From: Salinibacter ruber DSM 13855
GTDB taxonomy: Bacteria > Bacteroidota > Rhodothermia > Rhodothermales > Salinibacteraceae
DNA: 64,000 nt
Assembly: GCF_000013045.1 (NCBI RefSeq)
Contig: NC_007677.1
Location: forward strand, 1,798,001 to 1,862,000
Reading direction: 5' to 3'
Both the position numbers and the translations under genes were made by a program. Positions within the stretch are counted from its first letter, which is position 1. Each line of letters begins with the position of its first letter. The notes beneath the pieces were generated by a model, which saw only the letters and a program-made list of their open reading frames with translations, was not told the DNA's origin and did not search any database. Shown here one piece after another: positions 2,986-38,737 of the stretch.

Positions 2986-3070
2986 ACGGAGCGGCATCGG
3001 CGCGGGGCGAAAAGATCGCCGCGTGGGGGCGGCGGGCTATTTTTGCGTAACCAACGATTCGATTTGGGTT

Positions 3071-25880: not shown

Positions 25881-27455
25881 CTACGCGGGGATGGACGGCA
25901 TCAGGTAGTTGCGGGCCACCTCGGTAAAGGCCTCGACCTGATCGTCGACCCAGGAGGGGGGCAGGTCCCGTTCTTCGGCCATCAACTCGGCGACCCGGGG
26001 CGCCACGTCGATGCTCGCCTGGGCGTCGAGCAGCAGGCATCGGGTGCGGCGGGCCAGGACGTCCTCTACCGTACGGGCCATCTCATGCCGGGCGGCCCAC
26101 ACCACCTGTCCGGCCCGGATGGGAAGCCGCTCGTCGAGAGGGGTCTGGAGGTGGGGGTGCTCCTCCATCAGGCCGCCCAGCGCTTCGGCGTCGGCGCCAT
26201 AGAGGGCGAGGTCGCCAAACTGCTCCGGGTTTTGGTGCCAGCCGTGCAGGCGGAGGTCGTCCGTTTGGGACGGCCGGCGGGCAAGCTCTGCGTGGCGGGC
26301 CGCCCGGTCGATGGTGTCCTCCGCCATCTTGCGGTAGGTGGTCCACTTGCCCCCCGAAATGGTGACGAGGCCGCTGTCGGACACGTTGAGCTGGTGCTCG
26401 CGGGAGATGTCCGAGGTGTCCCCGTTGCTTCCAGGGGGGGCCACCAGGGGACGAATGCCGGCATACACGCTTCGCACATCCTCCGGGCCCGGGTCCTTCG
26501 CGAGGTACCGCTGGGCGTGGGTGAGGAGGAAGTCCAGCTCCTCGTGCCCGGGTGTGGGCTCCATGCTCACCTCGTCGACCTCCGCCTCGGTCGTGCCGAC
26601 GACGACCCGGTCGTGCCACGGGATGGCGAAGAGGACGCGGCCGTCGTCCGTCTTTGGCACCATGATCGCGCTGTCGCCCGGCAGGAACGACTTGTCCAGG
26701 ACGATGTGGGTCCCGCGGCTGGGGCGCAGCGTGGTGCCGGCCGACGGGTCGTCCATCTGGCGGATGGTGTCGGTGAAGATGCCGGTGGCGTTGATCACCG
26801 ACCGGGCCTCGATGTCGAACGTGGCGCCGGTTTCCTGGCACTCGGCGACCACGCCGTCCACGGCCCCATTCGTCTTTTTGAGGTCCGTCGCCTTCATGTA
26901 GTTGAGCAGCACGCCGCCCTGCTCGTCGGCCGTCTGGGCCATGTTGACGGCCAGCCGGGTGTCGTCGAACTGCCCGTCGAAGTACAGAATGCCGCCGCGC
27001 AGGCCGTCGGTCTCCACGGTGGGAAGGCGCTCAATCGTCTGGTTTCGATCGAGGTACTGCGACCGGCCAAAGTTTTGGCTGCCTGCGAGCAGGTCGTACA
27101 CCTTCATCCCGATTCCGTAGTAGGGCGCCTCCCACCACTTGTAGCTCGGCACCACGAAGGGGAGGTTGCTCACGAGGTGGGGGGCATTGTCCTGAAGCCG
27201 CTCCCGTTCCTTCAGCGCCTCGAAGACGAGGGACACGTTGCCCTGCTCCAGGTACCGGACGCCGCCGTGCACGAGCTTCGTCGAGCGGCTGGAGGTCGCC
27301 TTCGCGAAGTCGTGCATCTCGAGCAGGAGCGTATCGTAGCCCCGGGCCGCGGCGTCCACGGCACAGCCGAGCCCGGTGGCCCCACCGCCGATGATGACGA
27401 AGTCCCAGGGCGTCTGGCGGGATTGAAGTGCCTCGATGCCTTGTGTGCGGTCCAT
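25881..27455 (-). CDS. glpD: aerobic glycerol-3-phosphate dehydrogenase (GlpD)
   Basis: This 524-aa FAD enzyme oxidises G3P to DHAP at the cytoplasmic membrane and passes electrons to quinone. It has the dinucleotide motif IIGGGATGLGCAVDAAARG and the family segments SSRSTKLVHGGVRYLEQG, GTHIVLDKSFLPGD and SISGGKWTTYRKMAEDTID-like (VTISGGKWTTYRKMAE). The C-terminal DAO_C domain is present. The length matches GlpD. It is the last gene of the leftward unit glpV-porin-glpD, separated from the barrel gene by 225 bp containing a strong stem-loop. It converges on the chemotaxis gene. Confidence 0.94.
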   Translation of the reverse strand: MDRTQGIEALQSRQTPWDFVIIGGGATGLGCAVDAAARGYDTLLLEMHDFAKATSSRSTKLVHGGVRYLEQGNVSLVFEALKERERLQDNAPHLVSNLPFVVPSYKWWEAPYYGIGMKVYDLLAGSQNFGRSQYLDRNQTIERLPTVETDGLRGGILYFDGQFDDTRLAVNMAQTADEQGGVLLNYMKATDLKKTNGAVDGVVAECQETGATFDIEARSVINATGIFTDTIRQMDDPSAGTTLRPSRGTHIVLDKSFLPGDSAIMVPKTDDGRVLFAIPWHDRVVVGTTEAEVDEVSMEPTPGHEELDFLLTHAQRYLAKDPGPEDVRSVYAGIRPLVAPPGSNGDTSDISREHQLNVSDSGLVTISGGKWTTYRKMAEDTIDRAARHAELARRPSQTDDLRLHGWHQNPEQFGDLALYGADAEALGGLMEEHPHLQTPLDERLPIRAGQVVWAARHEMARTVEDVLARRTRCLLLDAQASIDVAPRVAELMAEERDLPPSWVDDQVEAFTEVARNYLMPSIPA

Positions 27456-27680: not shown

Positions 27681-28892
27681 TTAAAAGCTGAAGGAGAGCT
27701 CCGTCAGGACCCCGGAAAAGCTGTCGGCGGGCGCCGGACGGGTAACGGGGGTCCCCTGAGCAGAGTTGAAGCTATCCCCGTGGCTCTGCGTGACACCGGA
27801 CACCTTCAGGAGAGCGTGGTCGTAAAGCTCCACCCCAATTCCTCCCTCGAAACGGGTAAGGTTGCCGTCCGGATCGCCGGAGGCATTGTCGATGGCGTCG
27901 CCCTGGTCACTGACGATCACAAAGCGACCAGCGAGGTAGAAGCTTTCCGTGATGTCGACTTTCGCACCGAGACCACCGAAGGCCGCGGCAGCATCATTCG
28001 TGCCGTCCACCTCGCTGTCTTGTGCGTAGCCGCCCCAAAGGTCAATGTCCAGGGGGCTCGGGGTGATCTTGGCGTCCACCTGCGTGATCCATCCGCCGTT
28101 CGGAAGGGCCGCGTGGGTGTTTTTGGACTGGTCAGCAAACCCACCATTTGGGTTTTGCTGCTCGGGGTTCAGGTTGATGTTTTCGCGGTCCCCCCGGGCA
28201 AAGTCCATGGTCTCTTGGCCCGTTGCGCCCGCAAGTCCAGCCCCGACCTGGAGCACGTCGGAGACAGCGTATGTGGCATTTCCAATCAACCACACTCCGG
28301 TGGAGCCTTCACCCAACGTGGTCAGGTTCTCTCCGAAGGTCTTCGCCGCGGTCAGGTCGAATCCAAATCCTCCGTACGATCCAATCAACTTCACGCCCTG
28401 ACCGGCAGTGATGATGTCGGCCGGTGAGTTTCCGATGAGAGGGTTTCCCTGAACCACGGGGCCATCCGAGAATCCGCGGAAGTGCATGAGGCCGGTGACG
28501 GGCGTTCCTGCCTGGACCGTCAGCCCCTCACTGACCTGCATATTCATCACCATGAAGTCGACCGATGGCCCGAGTCCAAACTGACCGCCAAAGTCGTTCG
28601 GCTCTTGTTCCAGCATGAGTAGCCCGCTCACGTTTTCGGAGAACTGGACGCTGGCATTCAGGCCGGCGCGAGCACGATGGAAGCCGGTCACCGCTCCGGG
28701 GAAGCCGTCCACAGAAATGGACTGAGCGGACTGCATGAGGTTGACGGCGAAGTCAATCTCCGGCAGCTCGCCATCCTCCATCTGCGCCTGCGCCGGCACC
28801 GCCGTCGCCATGAGGAGCAGAAGGGCAAAGACGCTAGCGGTCAGCCATTGAAAAAAGGCGTTTGAGGGCTCTGAAATCGTAAATTGAGACAT
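27681..28892 (-). CDS. outer-membrane beta-barrel protein, putative porin of the glycerol cluster
   Basis: This 403-aa protein starts at ATG 28892 with a signal peptide (hydrophobic SVFALLLLMATAVPAQA, cleavage near AQA-Q). The mature part is a series of amphipathic beta strands with alternating hydrophobic residues and Gly/Asn/Asp-rich turns. It ends in LTELSFSF, with the terminal aromatic residue expected of outer-membrane barrels. I do not recognise a named porin family. Its place between the glycerol-binding protein gene and glpD suggests a channel for glycerol or a related solute. The frame is open upstream to 29141, overlapping glpV, but homology-like sequence begins at the signal peptide. 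Confidence 0.75.
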   Translation of the reverse strand: MSQFTISEPSNAFFQWLTASVFALLLLMATAVPAQAQMEDGELPEIDFAVNLMQSAQSISVDGFPGAVTGFHRARAGLNASVQFSENVSGLLMLEQEPNDFGGQFGLGPSVDFMVMNMQVSEGLTVQAGTPVTGLMHFRGFSDGPVVQGNPLIGNSPADIITAGQGVKLIGSYGGFGFDLTAAKTFGENLTTLGEGSTGVWLIGNATYAVSDVLQVGAGLAGATGQETMDFARGDRENINLNPEQQNPNGGFADQSKNTHAALPNGGWITQVDAKITPSPLDIDLWGGYAQDSEVDGTNDAAAAFGGLGAKVDITESFYLAGRFVIVSDQGDAIDNASGDPDGNLTRFEGGIGVELYDHALLKVSGVTQSHGDSFNSAQGTPVTRPAPADSFSGVLTELSFSF

Positions 28893-29056
28893 AAGAGGTG
28901 TTGTGGGTTGGTCGTTGTTCGTGAAAACGGGCGTAGACAAAGTCCCCATCGAAGGGAACTCCAGTCGCCCGACCCTGCTGTTGGCCTCTCCAAAAAGAAC
29001 CGATACCGACGCCCGGAGAGGCGCGTCGAAATGCTCGTCGTAATGCCGGAAGGTCC

Positions 29057-29103
29057 CCGGCCGCAGCGCGAGCCCGAGGGCTCGGGAGGCGCACTGCGGC
29101 CGG
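29057..29103 (-). promoter_or_regulatory. large intercistronic stem-loop between glpV and barrel gene
   Basis: CCGGCCGCAG (29057-29066) pairs with CTGCGGCCGG (29094-29103). Inside it, CGAGCCC (29069-29075) pairs with GGGCTCG (29078-29084) around a two-base gap that would open to a larger loop. No T-tract follows on the minus strand. It lies directly after the glpV stop. Confidence 0.55.
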
Positions 29104-29125
29104 AGTCTGGTCCGGCCGGAAAGGG

Positions 29126-30961
29126 CTACTCCCCCTCCCACTGCTTCAGGAGTTCATCGTACGGCACCGTCTCCGGCTCTTCCGGGGACCGCTCAGCCTT
29201 CGGGGCGCCCGGCTGGTTGAGCCAGTACTCCCGGGTGCGCTCTTCGTTGAGCTCGGGGGAGTACTGTGCCATCCGCAGGCGGTCCATGAGCGAGTTCTGA
29301 ATGCTCGCCAGGTCGTTCATCGCCTGCTTGACGGTCTTCTCGCCGGTCACGGCGCTGGCCACCTGCTTCCACCACTGCTCGGCCAGGAGGGGGTAGTGGG
29401 GGACGTTCTTGCCTGAGTCCGTCCACTGGTCCTCCACCGGGGAGGTGTAGAAGGAGATCAGGCCGCCGAGGTCGCCCTCGCGCTCCTGCCAGTACTCGGA
29501 GTTGACCGTGGAGCTTCGGACGGGCGTCCGGCCCACGTTAAACTTGTTGAGCGAGACCGTCTTGGAGGAGGCAAACTGGGCCCACATCCAGGCGGCGTGC
29601 CGCTTGTCGCCGGTGGTCTGCTTCGGGATGGTCCAGCTCCCGGCGTCCTGGTAGCCGACCTTCATGCCTTCGTCCCAGTACCGGCCGTGGGGCGTGGGGG
29701 CCACGCGCCACTTGGGGTTGCCCTCGTCGTCCGTCACGGCCGACTCCGGCGAGGTAAAGGGCTCGGCCGAGAGGAAGGTGATGTACTGGAAGACGCGCTG
29801 CGCCACGCTGCCGCGAGAGGGCACGGGGCCCGCCTCCGACCAACTCATGGACGGGGCGTAGGGCGGGGCGTAGTCGTTCAGCCAATTCACGTACTTGCGG
29901 GTGGCGTAGTAGGCCGCGGGGCTGTTTGTCGCACCGCCACGGTCCACCGAGGAGCCAACCGGGATGCGGTCCTCCACGCGGATGCCCCACTCGTCGACGG
30001 GACGGCCGTTCGGAAGGCCCTTGTCGCCGGCGCCCGCAATCGAGAGCCAGGCGTCCGTGAAGCGCCATCCCAGCGAGGGGCCTCGGCGCCCGTAGTCCAT
30101 GTGGCCGTACACACCGTCCGTCTCGGCGCCCACGTCGGAGGGGGACACCGACTCGGTGAAGAACTCGGCGATGTCTTCGTAGGCGGCCCAGTTGCGGGGC
30201 ACGCCCAGCTCATAGCCGTACTCGTTCCGAAACTGCTCCTTGATCTCCGGGTCGTTGAACCAGTCGTACCGAAACCAATAGAGGTTCGCGAACTGCTGGT
30301 CCGGCAGCTGAAGCTGCTCGCCCTCAAAATTCTGGCCGAACTCCGGGTTCATCCAGTCGTCCAGGTCGAGCGTCGGGTTTGTAAACTCGCTGCCCGCCCC
30401 GTTCATGTAGTCGGTCAGGTTGACCGCGCTCTGAAGGCGGATGTGGGTGCCGATGAGGTCGGCGTCGTTGACGTAGATGTCGTAGACGCTCCGGCCGGAC
30501 GCGAGCTGCGTCTGGAGCTTCTCGACCAGGTCGCCCTCACCGATAATGTTGTGGGTCACGTTAATGCCCGTGATCTCGGTAAAGGCTTGGGCGAGCGTCT
30601 CCGATTCCCACGTGTGGGTCTTAATCGTCTCGGCCACCGACTCGACGTCGGTGCCGCGGAGCTGCTCGGCATTTTCCGCGAACCACATCAGCTCGTCGAT
30701 CTGCTCCTTCAGCGTGAGGACCGACGGCTGAAACTCCATCGCGTACTTGACGGCGGCCCGCTTGCGGTCGTTCATGGGGCCGTACTCGTTCTGGGCGTAC
30801 TCCCGGGCTTCCTCCCGCGTGATGTCGGGATAGTTGGGCTCATCGGGAAAGTCCTGCGCCTGCGCGGACGCGAGGGGTTGGAGGAGGAGGGCCGCGACGC
30901 AGAGGGCGACTGGCATCAGCCAGCCGCGGCGCGGCGCATGGGGTTGGTAAGAGGTGCTCAT
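29126..30961 (-). CDS. glpV: glycerol ABC transporter, substrate-binding protein (GlpV-like)
   Basis: This 611-aa periplasmic binding protein has a signal peptide ending near SAQAQ. The family is the one encoded with the glpSTPQU importer of Rhizobium, in which GlpV captures glycerol. Matching features include the long N-terminal helical part (YAMEFQPSVLTLKEQIDELM) and central aromatic binding-type segments (FANLYWFRYDWF, WAAYEDIAEFF). It is somewhat longer than typical members. It has its own promoter module upstream, nearly identical to that of glpK, and leads the unit glpV-porin-glpD. This separates the binding protein from the permease genes, unlike the single Rhizobium operon. Confidence 0.88.
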   Translation of the reverse strand: MSTSYQPHAPRRGWLMPVALCVAALLLQPLASAQAQDFPDEPNYPDITREEAREYAQNEYGPMNDRKRAAVKYAMEFQPSVLTLKEQIDELMWFAENAEQLRGTDVESVAETIKTHTWESETLAQAFTEITGINVTHNIIGEGDLVEKLQTQLASGRSVYDIYVNDADLIGTHIRLQSAVNLTDYMNGAGSEFTNPTLDLDDWMNPEFGQNFEGEQLQLPDQQFANLYWFRYDWFNDPEIKEQFRNEYGYELGVPRNWAAYEDIAEFFTESVSPSDVGAETDGVYGHMDYGRRGPSLGWRFTDAWLSIAGAGDKGLPNGRPVDEWGIRVEDRIPVGSSVDRGGATNSPAAYYATRKYVNWLNDYAPPYAPSMSWSEAGPVPSRGSVAQRVFQYITFLSAEPFTSPESAVTDDEGNPKWRVAPTPHGRYWDEGMKVGYQDAGSWTIPKQTTGDKRHAAWMWAQFASSKTVSLNKFNVGRTPVRSSTVNSEYWQEREGDLGGLISFYTSPVEDQWTDSGKNVPHYPLLAEQWWKQVASAVTGEKTVKQAMNDLASIQNSLMDRLRMAQYSPELNEERTREYWLNQPGAPKAERSPEEPETVPYDELLKQWEGE

Positions 30962-31062: not shown

Positions 31063-31070
31063 AAGCGCTT
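31063..31070. promoter_or_regulatory. AAGCGCTT palindrome in the glpV leader
   Basis: The sequence reads GTAAGCGCTTCCG. It lies downstream of the predicted glpV start of transcription, and its centre is 65 bp from the palindrome in the promoter. It could be an auxiliary operator for a LacI-type repressor. Confidence 0.5.
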
Positions 31071-31119: not shown

Positions 31120-31185
31120 AGTATAGAAAGCGCTTTTCTTCATCGATAGTCTAATCTTCCGAGAAAATGATTCCATCTTCCCAAA
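31120..31185 (-). promoter_or_regulatory. glpV promoter module (AraC-type repeats, palindrome, -10)
   Basis: Read on the minus strand, it contains two GGAAGAT direct repeats exactly 21 bp apart (plus-strand ATCTTCC at 31154-31160 and 31175-31181). A 10-bp palindrome AAAGCGCTTT (31127-31136) and a TATACT -10 hexamer (31120-31125) follow. A 65-bp block (31121-31185) matches the block in front of glpK (37558-37622) without gaps. The proximal repeat ends next to the poor -35 position (TATCGA), as in class II activation. The start codon of glpV lies about 160 bases downstream. Confidence 0.75.
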
Positions 31186-31420
31186 GTGGCGCCGCCGTCT
31201 AACGAGGCACGAGGGGACGGCCGGTTGGCCGACGCAGTGTCGACCGCGCGGCCCGACGGCCCTGTTTGCCCGCGATGGGAATTGCGGCCGTGAGGGAAGC
31301 CGTGCGTCTTCGGGCCATGCGGGGCACGACCGTGAGGGCTAGGCCATTAGCGCCGTCCCCCCGGCGGGCCCCAGGGGCCGGATGTCCGGGGGAGGAATCA
31401 CCAATCCGCCCGGCGCCGGC

Positions 31421-31711
31421 CTAGAAAAAGTTGATGGTGCCGATAATGGACAGCGCCCCGAGGAGGAGCACCGCCCACACGGCCGTCGGCCCCACCAGGT
31501 AGAGCCACAGGCAAAAGAGGGCGCCCGTCATCAGCAGGCCCATGAAGAAGCGATCGCCCCGGGTGGTCTCGATGGGGAGGAGCCCCTGGCGTGCCCATCC
31601 GGGCTCCTTCATGTCCCAGATCGTCAGGCTGATGAGCAGCAGAATGATCGACCCGAGGAAGATGAGGGTGGGGGACGTCCAGTTCATCCAGTCGGGGGGA
31701 AGAGAGAGCAT
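31421..31711 (-). CDS. glpU: small membrane protein of the glycerol importer (GlpU-like, DUF2160)
   Basis: This 96-aa protein has three predicted membrane helices (TLIFLGSIILLLISLTIW, then RFFMGLLMTGALFCLWLYLV and a C-terminal helix). The motif WDMKEPGWARQGLLPI matches the DUF2160 family encoded in glpSTPQUV operons. Its exact role in glycerol uptake is not established. It starts 51 bp after the glpQ stop and is the last gene of the unit glpK-S-T-P-Q-U. It is short but very well supported by context and length. Confidence 0.88.
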   Translation of the reverse strand: MLSLPPDWMNWTSPTLIFLGSIILLLISLTIWDMKEPGWARQGLLPIETTRGDRFFMGLLMTGALFCLWLYLVGPTAVWAVLLLGALSIIGTINFF

Positions 31712-31762
31712 GGGGACCAGTGGGGTGGAGTGAGGCAGGGGGCGGGAGGGGCGGCAACGCCG

Positions 31763-32557
31763 CTACACGCGGCCCATGGAGAAGCCCGTGGCCAGGAGGT
31801 CGCGGACGAGGTACACGATGATGGCCCCGGGAATCATGGCGATCACACCCGCCGCGGCCAGCACGCCCCAGTCCCAGCCGCCGGCGCCGAGGCTCCGGGT
31901 CAGGGTAACGGTAATCGGCTGTGCGGCCTCGTTGGTGAGGGTGCGGGCGAGAAGCAGCTCAACCCAGGAGAACATGAACGTCAGAAACGCCGTCACCGCG
32001 ATGCCGGGCTTGATCAACGGGAGGAAGATGTTCCAGCAGAAGCTGGTGAAGCTGTGCCCGTCGATAAAGGCCATCTCGTCGATCTCCTTCGGGATGCCGG
32101 ACATGAACCCCTCCAGAATCCAGATGGCCAGCGGCAGGTTGAACAGGCAGTGTGCCAGCGCGACCGCCCAGTAGGTGTCGATCAGGTTTAGGTTCGAGTA
32201 GAGGATGAAGAACGGCACCATGAAGGCCGCCGGGGGCGCCATCCGGTTCGTCAGGAACCAGAAGAACAGGTGCTTGTCGCCCCGAAAGTCCCAGCGCGAA
32301 AAGGCGTAGGCGGCGGGGAGGGCCGCGATGGTCACGAACACCACGTTCATGGAGGCCATGATGATGGAGTTGATGTACCCGGCCCGCCAAAACTCCGAGG
32401 TCAGAATCTCCTCGTAGTTCGCGAGCGTGAACTCGTGCGGATACAGCGTCAGCCGACTCAGAATCTCGGAGTTCGGCTTGAACGACATGTTGACCATCCA
32501 GTAGATTGGTATCAGGATGAATACCAAAAACAGGATGAGATAATACTTTTTATTCAT
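31763..32557 (-). CDS. glpQ: glycerol ABC transporter permease (GlpQ-like)
   Basis: This 264-aa inner-membrane permease of the MalG/carbohydrate-uptake group has about six membrane helices. The EAA loop that couples to the ATPase is visible as EIDEMAFIDGHSFTSFCWNIF followed by LPLIKPGI. Its start codon overlaps the stop codon of the preceding permease gene by four bases, indicating translational coupling. Together with the partner permease it should form the heterodimeric channel for glycerol. Confidence 0.92.
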   Translation of the reverse strand: MNKKYYLILFLVFILIPIYWMVNMSFKPNSEILSRLTLYPHEFTLANYEEILTSEFWRAGYINSIIMASMNVVFVTIAALPAAYAFSRWDFRGDKHLFFWFLTNRMAPPAAFMVPFFILYSNLNLIDTYWAVALAHCLFNLPLAIWILEGFMSGIPKEIDEMAFIDGHSFTSFCWNIFLPLIKPGIAVTAFLTFMFSWVELLLARTLTNEAAQPITVTLTRSLGAGGWDWGVLAAAGVIAMIPGAIIVYLVRDLLATGFSMGRV

Positions 32558-33420
32558 TGGTCACCACCTGCACCTTGTCCGAGGTTAAGCATGACGATGT
32601 AAATCACGAAGGAGATAAGGATCACGATGAAGAAGTAGATCAGCGACGTCGCCGCGCCTCTTCCCATCTGAAATCCCCCAATGGCCATTCGTGAGGTGTA
32701 CGTGCTGAGGAAGGTCGTGGAGCTTCCCGGGCCGCCGCCCGTGAGCACGAACGGTTCGGCGTAGATCTTAAACGAGTCCATCAGCCGCAGCAGGACGGCG
32801 ATGATGAGAACGCCTCGCAGGTTCGGCAGCGTAACGTACCGGAACGTCTTCCAGGGCGAGGCCCGGTCGATCTTGGCGGCCATGTAGTATTCCTCGGGGA
32901 TGGCCTGAATGCCGGCGTAGCAGATGAGGACCACCAAGGGGGTCCAGTGCCAGATGTCCATGGCCAATACCGTCCACCAGGCGTCAAAGGTGGAGCTGCT
33001 AATCTCGTAGGAGTACCCGAACCAGTTGAAGGCGGCGGGAAGGACCCCGATGTCCGACCGGGTGAACACGCGCCAGATGATGCCGACGACGTTCCAGGGA
33101 ATCAGCAGCGGGATGCCCAGGAGGACGAGGCTGACGCCGACGCCGGGGCCCTCTTTGGGCATGCAGAGGGCCAGCCCCAGCCCGAGCGGGATTTCCGTGA
33201 TGAGCACGAGGAAGCTGAAGACGAATTGCCGGGCCAGCGCCCCCCGAAACGCCTCGTCCTCGAGGATGGCAACGAAGTTCTCCAACCCTGAAAAGTAGGG
33301 CTCGGTGCCCGGAAGCAGGGTCAGTTGGGAGTAGTTCATCACCGTGATGAGCGGGATGAAGGCACTGATCGAGACCAGGAGCAGTGCCGGCAGCAGAAAG
33401 AGCCAGGGACGTTGTTTCAT
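32554..33420 (-). CDS. glpP: glycerol ABC transporter permease (GlpP-like)
   Basis: This 288-aa inner-membrane permease of the MalF/UgpA-like group has six hydrophobic segments. Its EAA loop reads EYYMAAKIDRASPWKTFRYV followed by TLPNLRG. It lies 44 bp after the second ATPase gene and overlaps glpQ by four bases. The identity as the glycerol permease rests on the complete glpSTPQU gene order around it, since the sequence alone would only give a sugar-type permease. Confidence 0.92.
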   Translation of the reverse strand: MKQRPWLFLLPALLLVSISAFIPLITVMNYSQLTLLPGTEPYFSGLENFVAILEDEAFRGALARQFVFSFLVLITEIPLGLGLALCMPKEGPGVGVSLVLLGIPLLIPWNVVGIIWRVFTRSDIGVLPAAFNWFGYSYEISSSTFDAWWTVLAMDIWHWTPLVVLICYAGIQAIPEEYYMAAKIDRASPWKTFRYVTLPNLRGVLIIAVLLRLMDSFKIYAEPFVLTGGGPGSSTTFLSTYTSRMAIGGFQMGRGAATSLIYFFIVILISFVIYIVMLNLGQGAGGDQ

Positions 33421-33464: not shown

Positions 33465-34583
33465 CTACTGGGCGTGCACGGCCTGTTTCTCGTGGAAAAA
33501 CTGGACCGTGTCGGGGGGAAAGTTGAGCCAGATCGAGGCGCCCTCTTCGATCATAAAGTCGTGGGCCACGCGGGCCTTCACCTCCACCTCGGTGTCGTCG
33601 AGGCGCGTCGTCAGGATCTGGTAGCCGCCGACCATCTCCACCTGATCGACGGTCGCGGGAATGTAGTCCGTGTCCTCTTTCGGGTCGGCCACCTGGACGG
33701 TCACGGAGCTGGGGCGGATGCCGATCTGGCAGTCGGTCCAACTCAGGTCGATTTCGTCGTGGATGTCCGCGGAGACGGAAATCGTGTGCGGCCCGATTTG
33801 CGCGTGCGGCGCCGCGTCGTTTTCCGTCACGCCGCACTCGAGCAGGTTCATGCCGGGGCTCCCGATGAAGTGGCCGATGAAGGTGTTGACCGGGTTCTCG
33901 TAGAGGGTCTCGCCGCTGTCGTACTGCACGAGACGCCCGTCCCGCATGATGGCCACCTGCTCGGCGAAGGTGAGCGCCTCGTGCTGGTCGTGCGTCACGT
34001 AGAGCGCCGTGATTTCGAACTCCTGCTGGGCCTCCTTCACGCGCCGGCGGATGGTGAGCTTCCGGGCGGGCTCCACGTCCGTCATCGGCTCGTCGAAGAG
34101 GATGGCGGAGGTGTCCGCGCGGATGATGCCGCGCCCCAGGGCGACCAGCTGGTTCAGCTCGGGCCCGAGGTTCGAGGGGCTGCTGTGCAGAATGTCGTTG
34201 AGCTCCAGCAGGTCGGCAATCTTCTGGACGCGCTCTTCGATTTCGTTCTCCGGCGTGCCGCCATTCCGCAGGGGAAACGCGAGGTTGCCGTAGACGTCCA
34301 TCGAGTCGTAGATGACCGGAAACTGAAAGACCTGTGCGATGTCGCGCTCGGCCGGGGGCTTCTCGGTCACGTCCTCGCCGTCGATGAGCACCTGTCCCTC
34401 GGTGGGCTGGAGGAGCCCGGAGATGATCTGAAGGAGGGTGGTCTTGCCGCACCCCGACGGGCCCAGCAGCGCGTTGGCGGTGCCGTCCTGCAGGGTCAGG
34501 TCTACGTGGTCGATGGCCACCGTCTCGTCCGCGGTGCCCGCATCGTAGACGTGTCGTATGTCACGAACTTCGATCTCAGCCAT
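33465..34583 (-). CDS. glpT: glycerol ABC transporter ATPase with degenerate signature (GlpT-like)
   Basis: This 372-aa ATPase has Walker A GPSGCGKTT, Q-loop VFQFPVIYDSMD, Walker B ILFDEPMTD and a proper H-loop (ALYVTHDQHEAL). Its ABC signature is degenerate: LGPELNQLVALGRG instead of the usual LSGGQ form. This is a known trait of GlpT proteins. The C-terminal part is a TOBE/MOP-type regulatory domain. The partner ATPase upstream has the opposite defect, so the two probably build one good composite ATP site. Start ATG 34583 lies 15 bp after the partner's stop. Confidence 0.9.
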   Translation of the reverse strand: MAEIEVRDIRHVYDAGTADETVAIDHVDLTLQDGTANALLGPSGCGKTTLLQIISGLLQPTEGQVLIDGEDVTEKPPAERDIAQVFQFPVIYDSMDVYGNLAFPLRNGGTPENEIEERVQKIADLLELNDILHSSPSNLGPELNQLVALGRGIIRADTSAILFDEPMTDVEPARKLTIRRRVKEAQQEFEITALYVTHDQHEALTFAEQVAIMRDGRLVQYDSGETLYENPVNTFIGHFIGSPGMNLLECGVTENDAAPHAQIGPHTISVSADIHDEIDLSWTDCQIGIRPSSVTVQVADPKEDTDYIPATVDQVEMVGGYQILTTRLDDTEVEVKARVAHDFMIEEGASIWLNFPPDTVQFFHEKQAVHAQ

Positions 34584-34598
34584 GTACCAGCGTCGACG

Positions 34599-35714
34599 TT
34601 ATGAGAAGGAGGGAATTTTGTCGCCCGCGGCGATCAGGTCGCCCGCCTCGGGATCGTAGACGTAGAACTTCTTGGGATCGAGCGCAAACGAGATCGACGC
34701 GCCGGTCTCCAGGTGCAGCGGGTTGGGGTGCAGCGCGTAGATCTCCCGCCCCTGAAAGTCCATGTGGAGGGTGCTGGTGGAGCCGACCGTCTCCACGAAC
34801 GAGAGGGTGGGGGTGATGGAGGCCTCGGCCCCGTTCTCCGTGAGGGTCATGTCCTGCGGGCGGAAGCCGAGATGATAGGTTTCGCCGGGGGAGAGGGCGT
34901 CGAAGCCCGTGGCCGGGATGCGCGTGTCGTCGTCCACCTCGAAGTAGCGGTCGGTGGATGTCGGCTCCTGGACGAGCGTGACCGGCACGATGTTCATGGG
35001 GGGCTCGCCCAGGTACTCGGCCACCGGGAGGTAGCGCGGCCGGTAGTAAATCTCGTCGCGCAGCGCCTTCTGGATGATGTTGCCGTCGTGGAGAAAGCCG
35101 ATGTGCGTCGACATCGCGAGCGCGTCCCCGGCCTGGGGGGTCGCGTAGATAACTGTCGTGTCCTCCTCGGAGAACAGGCGCTCGAAGTCACTGCGCAGCT
35201 GCTCGCGTAGTTTGTAGTCGAGGTTGGCCAGCGGCTCGTCCATGAAGAGGTAGTCGGGCTCTTTGATGAGGGCCCGGGAAATGGCCGTCCGCTGGGCCTC
35301 GCCGCCGCTGACCTCCTCCGGCAGGTTGTTGAGAATGTGGTCGATTTTCAGCATTTCGGCAGTTTCCTGCACGCGCCGCTCGATCTCCTCTGCCGAGTAA
35401 TTCTCGTCGCTGACCTGGAGGGGCGAGGCGAGGTTTTCGCGGACGGTGAGGGAGGGGTAGTTGATAAATTCCTGGTAGACCATGCCGACGCTGCGGTCCT
35501 GAACGGCCACGTCGGTCATCTCCTCGCCGTCGTAGTGGACGGTGCCCGCGTCGGCGGACTCGATCCCGGCCATGATGCGGAGCAGGGTGGTCTTGCCGGC
35601 GCCCGTGGGGGCCACCACGCTGAAGAAGCTCCGGTCGGGGATGTCCAGGGTGATCCCGTCCAGCACCTGCTCGGTCCCAAACGACTTGTGGAGGTTTTCG
35701 ACACGAATGCCCAT
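34599..35714 (-). CDS. glpS: glycerol ABC transporter ATPase lacking the H-loop histidine (GlpS-like)
   Basis: This protein is 371 aa from ATG 35714 (MGIRVENLHKSFG). An upstream TTG at 35759 would add 15 residues without homology. It has Walker A APTGAGKTT, Q-loop YQEFINYPSL, signature SGGEAQRTAISRAL and Walker B YLFMDEPLANLD. The switch region reads VIYATPQAGDALAMS, without the usual histidine. This matches GlpS proteins of the glpSTPQUV importer, which also diverge here. A C-terminal TOBE-like domain follows. It lies 60 bp after glpK in the same leftward unit. Confidence 0.9.
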   Translation of the reverse strand: MGIRVENLHKSFGTEQVLDGITLDIPDRSFFSVVAPTGAGKTTLLRIMAGIESADAGTVHYDGEEMTDVAVQDRSVGMVYQEFINYPSLTVRENLASPLQVSDENYSAEEIERRVQETAEMLKIDHILNNLPEEVSGGEAQRTAISRALIKEPDYLFMDEPLANLDYKLREQLRSDFERLFSEEDTTVIYATPQAGDALAMSTHIGFLHDGNIIQKALRDEIYYRPRYLPVAEYLGEPPMNIVPVTLVQEPTSTDRYFEVDDDTRIPATGFDALSPGETYHLGFRPQDMTLTENGAEASITPTLSFVETVGSTSTLHMDFQGREIYALHPNPLHLETGASISFALDPKKFYVYDPEAGDLIAAGDKIPSFS

Positions 35715-35774: not shown

Positions 35775-37355
<1,581 letters not shown>

Positions 37356-37556: not shown

Positions 37557-37622
37557 AGTATAGGAAGCGCTTTTTTGAGTCGGTAGTGTGATCTTCCGAG
37601 AAAATGCTTCCATCTTCCCAAA
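37557..37622 (-). promoter_or_regulatory. glpK promoter module (AraC-type repeats, palindrome, -10)
   Basis: On the minus strand it contains two GGAAGAT repeats 21 bp apart (plus-strand ATCTTCC at 37591-37597 and 37612-37618). Then come a weak -35 (TACCGA), AAGCGCTT (37565-37572) inside the -35/-10 spacer, and TATACT (37557-37562). A 65-bp block (37558-37622) aligns without gaps to the glpV module. The spacing fits an AraC-family activator bound next to RNA polymerase plus a repressor operator between the promoter boxes. Confidence 0.78.
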
Positions 37623-37799: not shown

Positions 37800-38711
37800 A
37801 TGTCCCGATCCTTTCGGCCAACCCCGTACGGAGAGGCGTCCGAATCCCTCGTCAACTACCGACTGGGCGTAGGCGGAGACGACGCACGGCTTTCCTTCTA
37901 TGCCGTCGAGGAGTCGGCCCGCGGCGTGTCCCTCCGGGCCCCGCACCTGACGTACTACGGGCTGGTCGACGGCACGGCACGGGTCGACGTGGAAGGCGAA
38001 GAAGGGCTTGCCGTCGAGGCGGGCGAGTCGCTGGTCGTGCCCCCGCTGCAGACGATCACGGTCGACTTCCCTGCGGCGCACGAGGACCCGGCCCGGTACG
38101 TGGTGCTGCGGATCGACCGGTCGCAGGTTCGCTCCATTCTCGATCGTGTCGCGAGCGACGTGCCGTCGGGCCCCGCGGTACAGGACGGGGGGAGGGACGA
38201 CCCCGCCTACTTTCACGTGCCGGAAAATGAAGGGATCGCCCGCGTGCTGAACATGGTCGCGTACCTGTTTCGGGAGGACCCCCCGAACCGCGACCGCCTG
38301 ATCGACCTCAACGCGATGGAGCTGCTCATTCAGATGCTTCAGACCGCGTCGCGCCCCCTTCTCGTCGGGGAGCTCCCCCGGAACACCTCCGCCGGCGGAT
38401 TGGCCGCGGCCGTGCAGTACATCCAGGACAACCTCGACCGTCACATTTCGATCGACGAACTGGTCGAGGAGGCCTGCATGAGCAAGTCCAGCTTCTACCG
38501 GCACTTCAGCGACGAATTCGAGATGTCCCCACTGGAGTACATCACGCGGGAGCGGGTCGTCCGGGCGCGGGAGCTGTTGGCGGATTCGGACAACACCGTC
38601 ACCAACGTGAGCCACGCCCTGGGCTTCAGTAGCACCAGTCATTTCATCGATATGTTTAAAGAGCATGAGGGCGTGACGCCCAAGCAGTATCAGATGGACC
38701 TCCTGGACTAG
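37800..38711 (+). CDS. AraC-family transcriptional regulator, probable glycerol regulator
   Basis: This 303-aa regulator has an N-terminal cupin-like sensing domain (about 15-130, with APHLTYYGLVDGTARVDVEG). The C-terminal AraC DNA-binding domain (about 200-300) has two helix-turn-helix units: ISIDELVEEACMSKSSFYRHF and VTNVSHALGFSSTSHFIDMF, followed by KEHEGVTPKQYQ. It is divergent from glpK. The direct repeats 21 bp apart in the glpK and glpV promoters have the spacing this family uses, so it is the best candidate to control both units. The inducer (glycerol, G3P or another compound) cannot be read from sequence. Rhizobium uses a different (DeoR-type) regulator for its glp operon. Confidence 0.88.
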   Translation: MSRSFRPTPYGEASESLVNYRLGVGGDDARLSFYAVEESARGVSLRAPHLTYYGLVDGTARVDVEGEEGLAVEAGESLVVPPLQTITVDFPAAHEDPARYVVLRIDRSQVRSILDRVASDVPSGPAVQDGGRDDPAYFHVPENEGIARVLNMVAYLFREDPPNRDRLIDLNAMELLIQMLQTASRPLLVGELPRNTSAGGLAAAVQYIQDNLDRHISIDELVEEACMSKSSFYRHFSDEFEMSPLEYITRERVVRARELLADSDNTVTNVSHALGFSSTSHFIDMFKEHEGVTPKQYQMDLLD

Positions 38712-38725
38712 CGTTGCGTCCATTA

Positions 38726-38737
38726 GGAAGCGCTTCC
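38726..38737. promoter_or_regulatory. perfect 12-bp palindrome upstream of gpsA
   Basis: GGAAGCGCTTCC lies 15 bp after the regulator stop and 53 bp before the gpsA start codon. It is the same core as in the glpK and glpV promoters, but no ATCTTCC repeats accompany it. It suggests that gpsA shares one of two regulators with the glycerol genes. Confidence 0.6.

Follow-up and report, generated by a model that had tools for sequence, protein, structure and literature searches.

The 64,000-nt stretch of the Salinibacter ruber DSM 13855 chromosome analysed here (the window) contains two glycerol transcription units, each preceded by a copy of the same promoter module, with a gene for an AraC-family regulator diverging from the first of them. 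Downstream of the first module lie glpK, two MalK/UgpC-type ATPase genes, two permease genes and a small ORF; downstream of the second lie the genes for a large solute-binding protein, a putative outer-membrane protein and glpD. The araC gene is followed by gpsA and then fbp. The features are as follows:

25881–27455, minus strand: glpD-like FAD glycerol-3-phosphate dehydrogenase (Pfam DAO and DAO_C)
27681–29141, minus strand: putative outer-membrane protein of 486 aa, in the glpD unit
29126–30961, minus strand: extracellular solute-binding protein of 611 aa (SBP_bac_1)
31063–31070: predicted auxiliary operator GTAAGCGCTTCC, which follows the palindrome of the second module at a distance of 65 bp and lies in the presumed 5′ UTR
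31120–31185, minus strand: second module copy, ahead of the substrate-binding protein, outer-membrane protein and glpD genes (plus strand: AGTATA at 31120–31125, ATCTTCC at 31154–31160 and 31175–31181, CCCAAA ending at 31185)
31128–31135: predicted LacI-type operator AAGCGCTT of the second module
31398–31712, minus strand: small ORF with no Pfam match, at the same place in four relatives (43–83% identity)
31763–33420, minus strand: two ABC permeases (32554–33420 and 31763–32557)
33465–34583, minus strand: ABC transporter ATPase 2 (MalK/UgpC type)
34599–35714, minus strand: ABC transporter ATPase 1 (MalK/UgpC type)
35775–37355, minus strand: glpK, glycerol kinase (TIGR01311, above cut-off)
37557–37622, minus strand: promoter module of the glpK operon, with two GGAAGAT direct repeats, a predicted LacI-type operator in the spacer and a TATACT -10 (plus strand: ATCTTCC at 37591–37597 and 37612–37618, CCCAAA ending at 37622)
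37557–37562, minus strand: -10 hexamer TATACT (plus strand AGTATA)
37565–37572: predicted LacI-type operator AAGCGCTT, located within the spacer and separated from the -10 by 2 bp
37580–37585, minus strand: -35 position for a 17-bp spacer, with the non-consensus TACCGA
37591–37597, minus strand: proximal AraC-type repeat GGAAGAT, 21 bp downstream of the distal repeat
37612–37618, minus strand: distal AraC-type repeat GGAAGAT, within the conserved TTTGGGAAGATGGAA.CATTTT
37800–38711, plus strand: divergent AraC-family regulator of 303 aa (HTH_18, AraC_N)
38726–38737: perfect predicted operator GGAAGCGCTTCC (core AAGCGCTT at 38728–38735), between araC and gpsA-fbp, kept in three relatives

The expectation that both transcription units are concerned with glycerol held up, glpK being identified through TIGR01311 and glpD through Pfam DAO/DAO_C, with the glpD-like protein falling below the curated NCBIfam glpD cut-offs. 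Both ATPases stayed below the cut-off for UgpC (NF008653, 251 and 276 bits against 432), and it is from its genomic place that we infer that the ABC system transports glycerol. The ORF at 27681–29141 gave no match in Pfam or NCBIfam, and its product is perhaps an outer-membrane channel for glycerol. This ORF evolves fast, being 37% identical in the relative G008. In the same genome the permease gene and the second module are separated by roughly 3 kb of additional sequence (L035:8557–11712).

Read on the coding strand, the module consists of TTTGGGAAGATGGAANCATTTTCTCGGAAGAT, about 20 bases, and AAAAGCGCTTYCTATACT. As originally predicted, the two 65-bp blocks align without gaps and carry their parts in the same spacing; they are identical at 56 of 65 positions, against 33 of 65 for the next-best match to the first block in the window and a mean of 15.6 (SD 3.4) at other positions on both strands. 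The modules are as that prediction described them, apart from a shift in position, with AGTATA beginning at 37557 and 31120 rather than at 37558 and 31121. Its AraC-like arrangement, in which the direct repeats are spaced by 21 bp and adjoin a divergent AraC gene, was likewise located. In the 30-bp flanks of the two modules 8–12 of 30 positions are identical, which is background. Allowing up to two mismatches, 0.21 occurrences of ATCTTCC-N14-ATCTTCC would be expected in the window, where two exact copies are present. Genome-wide, the only exact copies of GGAAGAT-N14-GGAAGAT are those of the two modules, and matches with one mismatch have spacers unrelated to the module. A scan of the glycerol region for consensus sigma-70 promoters found none, and in the glpK module the 21-bp unit of the proximal repeat overlaps the expected -35, lying over TACCGA, as in a class II-type AraC promoter. 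An Rfam search of 25–42 kb of the window gave no matches, and thus no known riboswitch or leader is found there.

Both modules occur at the same places in G010, G003, G006, G004 and G008, and the glpK copy is present in G002 and G005, whose contigs end beyond it and leave one place available. The repeats are therefore conserved in related genomes, as the original prediction demanded. In G001 and G012 the palindrome and TATACT are exact, the repeats are degenerate and the AraC protein is about 53% identical; here glpK adjoins glpD and the ABC genes are absent. When 84,980 species genomes, a set that may exclude the window's own genome, were scanned for the exact pattern, the module appeared in five records, all of Salinibacter type. 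Two copies identical at 56 of 65 positions in one genome could be alike merely through a recent segmental duplication, with no regulatory role. We consider this highly improbable, as both copies are retained in place even in relatives in which AraC identity has fallen to about 60%, and the alignment columns outside the module are random among relatives while the module and its spacing are kept.

The product of the divergent gene has the C-terminal double helix-turn-helix of the AraC/XylS family (PF12833, 84.5 bits; PF00165, 62.1 bits; both above cut-off), and the AraC proteins beside glycerol genes form one supported clade (100/98). The repeats occur only where this glycerol-type subclade occurs and degrade where the AraC protein diverges; in G007 and G009, which belong to the same genus and have no AraC protein of the glycerol type, the operator is present at glpK and the repeats are missing. 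As a predicted site, the ATCTTCC pair suits the AraC protein encoded next to it. In other genera, related AraC proteins are encoded beside an aldehyde dehydrogenase gene, usually accompanied by genes for an alcohol dehydrogenase and for a small protein, taken here for DUF779, and these loci probably form an alcohol/aldehyde regulon. AraC relatives at such loci (L040, L042, L049, L321 and others) also have promoters with AAGCGCTT. Both AraC types are present in G012 and G005, with the glycerol type alone in S. ruber, and because the two types occur together, duplication is the simplest origin for the glycerol type; it appears that Salinibacter acquired its AraC protein as a duplicate of an aldehyde-dehydrogenase regulator. 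As the promoter of the AraC-linked aldehyde dehydrogenase gene in G015 has the same GGAAGCGCTTCCTATACT arrangement, this type of promoter may have arrived together with the AraC gene.

The palindrome AAGCGCTT is present in four copies in the window (0.56 expected), all in the glycerol region, those at 31063–31070 and 38728–38735 being absent from the original prediction. The auxiliary copy lies at the same place in four relatives, at a distance of 64–65 bp. Its sequence, GTAAGCGCTTCC, is a hybrid of one half that resembles a LacI-2 site (see below) and one that resembles the global site, and this is kept in several relatives. Among genomes of the order, AAGCGCTT is found upstream of PEPCK in 21 of 30 and of glpK in 22 of 29, and eleven composition-matched control palindromes gave a single match in total upstream of these two genes. 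The perfect 12-mer GGAAGCGCTTCC occurs 234 times in 60 genomes, compared with 68 times for its reversed control (17 of them in one genome). Genome-wide, AAGCGCTT is not over-represented (52 copies, 64 for the reversed control), and we therefore leave abundance aside and base the case on position and conservation. Intergenic copies in S. ruber lie ahead of the genes for PPDK, PEPCK, glutamate synthase (two copies), HPPD, a dehydrogenase E1, methylmalonyl-CoA mutase and argG, and at a divergent epimerase/Lrp pair. Many of the S. ruber sites are conserved in G003 or G006, and conserved operators are present at PPDK, PEPCK, HPPD, methylmalonyl-CoA mutase, argG and other genes. S. ruber has two PEPCK genes that are about 52% identical (G000:C1:2269476 and 2950330), and the operator was examined ahead of the first only. 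The two copies at glutamate synthase are 30 bp apart (L070:2998–3005 and 3028–3035), between an amidohydrolase gene and that of the synthase, which hints that nitrogen assimilation may be under carbon control.

With its symmetry, its central CG and its conservation at several targets, AAGCGCTT has the marks of a LacI-type operator (GGAAGCGCTTCC), which we predict to be common to the order and not specific to glycerol. The palindrome had originally been regarded as part of a private glycerol code, a view that we abandon, given its presence at PEPCK, PPDK and other genes and at glpK promoters that have no AraC module. The proposal of a compact regulon with its own operator code is retained for the repeat pair, which is specific to glycerol, and not for the palindrome, which is shared across the order: since AAGCGCTT also marks PEPCK, PPDK and other central-metabolism genes, the glycerol-specific code is the repeat pair alone. 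The palindrome would instead tie the glycerol regulon to general carbon control. The original reading, in which the AraC protein alone binds the whole 65-bp module, palindrome included, would account for the fixed distance between palindrome and repeats, and for the occurrence of AAGCGCTT in other genera ahead of aldehyde dehydrogenase genes that adjoin those of related AraC proteins. It is nevertheless improbable, as the palindrome is present at PEPCK, PPDK and many other genes, is of LacI type in its symmetry and central CG, and is found at glpK of G024, a genome in which no AraC relative was found.

Four LacI proteins are encoded in S. ruber, two of which deserve attention as candidate owners of the operator, LacI-1 (chromosomal position 1,881,385) and LacI-2 (483,035). 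LacI-1 is present in nearly all genomes of the order, its recognition helix VAISTVSRV is identical in 24 of the 25 best matches, and its closest solved protein is CcpA. Assignment of LacI-1 to CcpA itself was rejected at 157.9 bits (TIGR01481, cut-off 442.35), as was assignment to Cra/FruR at 67.6 bits (NF008452, cut-off 385). Some genomes (G032, G034, G037 and G041) encode a LacI-1 relative and have no operator at glpK. LacI-2, a sugar-locus regulator, would be the alternative: its relatives across the order have palindromes of the TGTAAGCGCTTACA type just upstream of their own genes in most genomes tested, and their helix (STATVSRV or SIATVSRV) resembles the SMATVSRV of CcpA, whose cre sites contain AAGCG. 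LacI-2 itself has an AAGCGCTT operator of this type and could bind the module sites. The outer bases, however, are GT..AC at the LacI-2 sites against GG..CC in the shared operator, and G008 and G024 have the operators with LacI-1 as the only LacI relative found (in genomes that are 83–85% complete). For these two reasons we favor LacI-1, with some reserve, as the likeliest owner of GGAAGCGCTTCC, and regard LacI-2 as a possible but rather unlikely one. The palindrome upstream of LacI-2 (G000:C1:483035, L106; relatives L301–L319) is cre-like, and in S. ruber a SusC-type gene adjoins that of LacI-2.

In G014, G015, G020, G021 and G024, glpK is preceded by TTGACA, a 17-bp spacer that starts with AAAGCGCTTCC, and a TAT-type -10; the operator lies within that spacer and the repeats are absent. 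We read this glpK promoter of other genera as an ordinary promoter with a predicted operator in its spacer. In the Salinibacter module 2 bp separate the operator from the -10, and the AraC repeats extend across the -35 position, which is TACCGA in S. ruber. The anatomy of the module, its conservation, its co-occurrence with one AraC subclade and the sharing of the operator together make it probable, in our judgment, that AraC activation of a promoter without a -35 is combined here with LacI-type repression from the -35/-10 spacer; the binding events, the direction of control, the inducer, the transcription start and the identity of the LacI protein are what we infer from them. We suggest that the divergently encoded AraC protein binds both GGAAGAT repeats, 21 bp apart, directly upstream of and overlapping a promoter with TATACT and no proper -35, and that the bound protein would recruit RNA polymerase, presumably when glycerol or a glycerol product is present. 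A LacI-family repressor would bind AAGCGCTT in the spacer and thereby block the promoter, aided at the binding-protein promoter by the auxiliary downstream operator. The sign of this LacI-type control is uncertain, because some LacI-type regulators also activate. The operator would be part of an order-wide carbon-control system that marks PEPCK, PPDK, gpsA-fbp and other genes.

On a larger scale, we lean, by a little, towards a scenario with three parts: a LacI-type regulon common to the Rhodothermales (GGAAGCGCTTCC; PEPCK, PPDK, glycerol and amino-acid catabolism), as a counterpart of those of CcpA and Cra; a takeover of the Salinibacter glycerol genes by an AraC regulator duplicated from the aldehyde-dehydrogenase locus; and a switch of the glpK promoter from a TTGACA-driven, repressed form to an activator-dependent one.

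A literature search covering a Salinibacter LacI regulon, an AraC-controlled glycerol ABC transporter, catabolite control in Rhodothermus, the S. ruber transcriptome and constitutive glycerol kinase returned nothing on these promoters or this operator; most subscription papers lay outside its scope, which makes it weak evidence. In the searchable papers, neither an AraC-type "on" switch nor a LacI-type "off" switch is described for the group. Glycerol from the alga Dunaliella is one of the main sources of carbon in saltern brines, in which Salinibacter is abundant, and a glycerol promoter with a named activator and a predicted operator opens its glycerol control to direct testing. The shared operator furthermore points to an undescribed global carbon regulator across a whole order, and the module may offer a clear case of promoter rewiring in which simple repression gave way to a combination of activation and repression.

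A close parallel to the module is araBAD of E. coli, where AraC binds at I1-I2, direct repeats 21 bp apart of which the proximal one overlaps a poor -35, and where the regulator gene is divergent. The module shares the AraC-family protein, the 21-bp direct repeats, the proximal repeat over a poor -35 and the divergent regulator, but differs in the repeat sequence, in having a LacI-type operator in the spacer where araBAD has an upstream CRP site, and in serving glycerol genes. In the E. coli glp regulon, the GlpR repressor is of the DeoR family, there is no AraC activator and glycerol enters through a facilitator. Regulated glycerol uptake, glpK and glpD are common to both organisms, whereas Salinibacter would use another repressor family and operator, an AraC protein and ABC uptake. 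The rhizobial glycerol ABC transporter of the GlpSTPQV type has two ATPases, two permeases and a large binding protein together with glycerol genes, and so does Salinibacter, except that the gene for its binding protein shares a separate unit with that of the putative outer-membrane protein.

For the operator, a close comparison is CcpA of the Firmicutes, a LacI-family protein with many central-metabolism targets and a cre palindrome built on AAGCG. The Salinibacter system resembles it in its LacI-family candidate, its AAGCG-built palindrome and its many central-metabolism targets, and differs in that LacI-1 is below the CcpA cut-off and that the outer operator bases are GG..CC. The bifidobacterial paralogues AraQ and MalR1, which regulate central carbon metabolism and are of LacI type, recognise nearly the same operator, and at some targets their site overlaps the -35/-10 region (PMC6882875). 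Unlike the Salinibacter system, they have an operator core of GAGC/GCTC and bifid-shunt targets, and belong to another phylum (PMC6882875).
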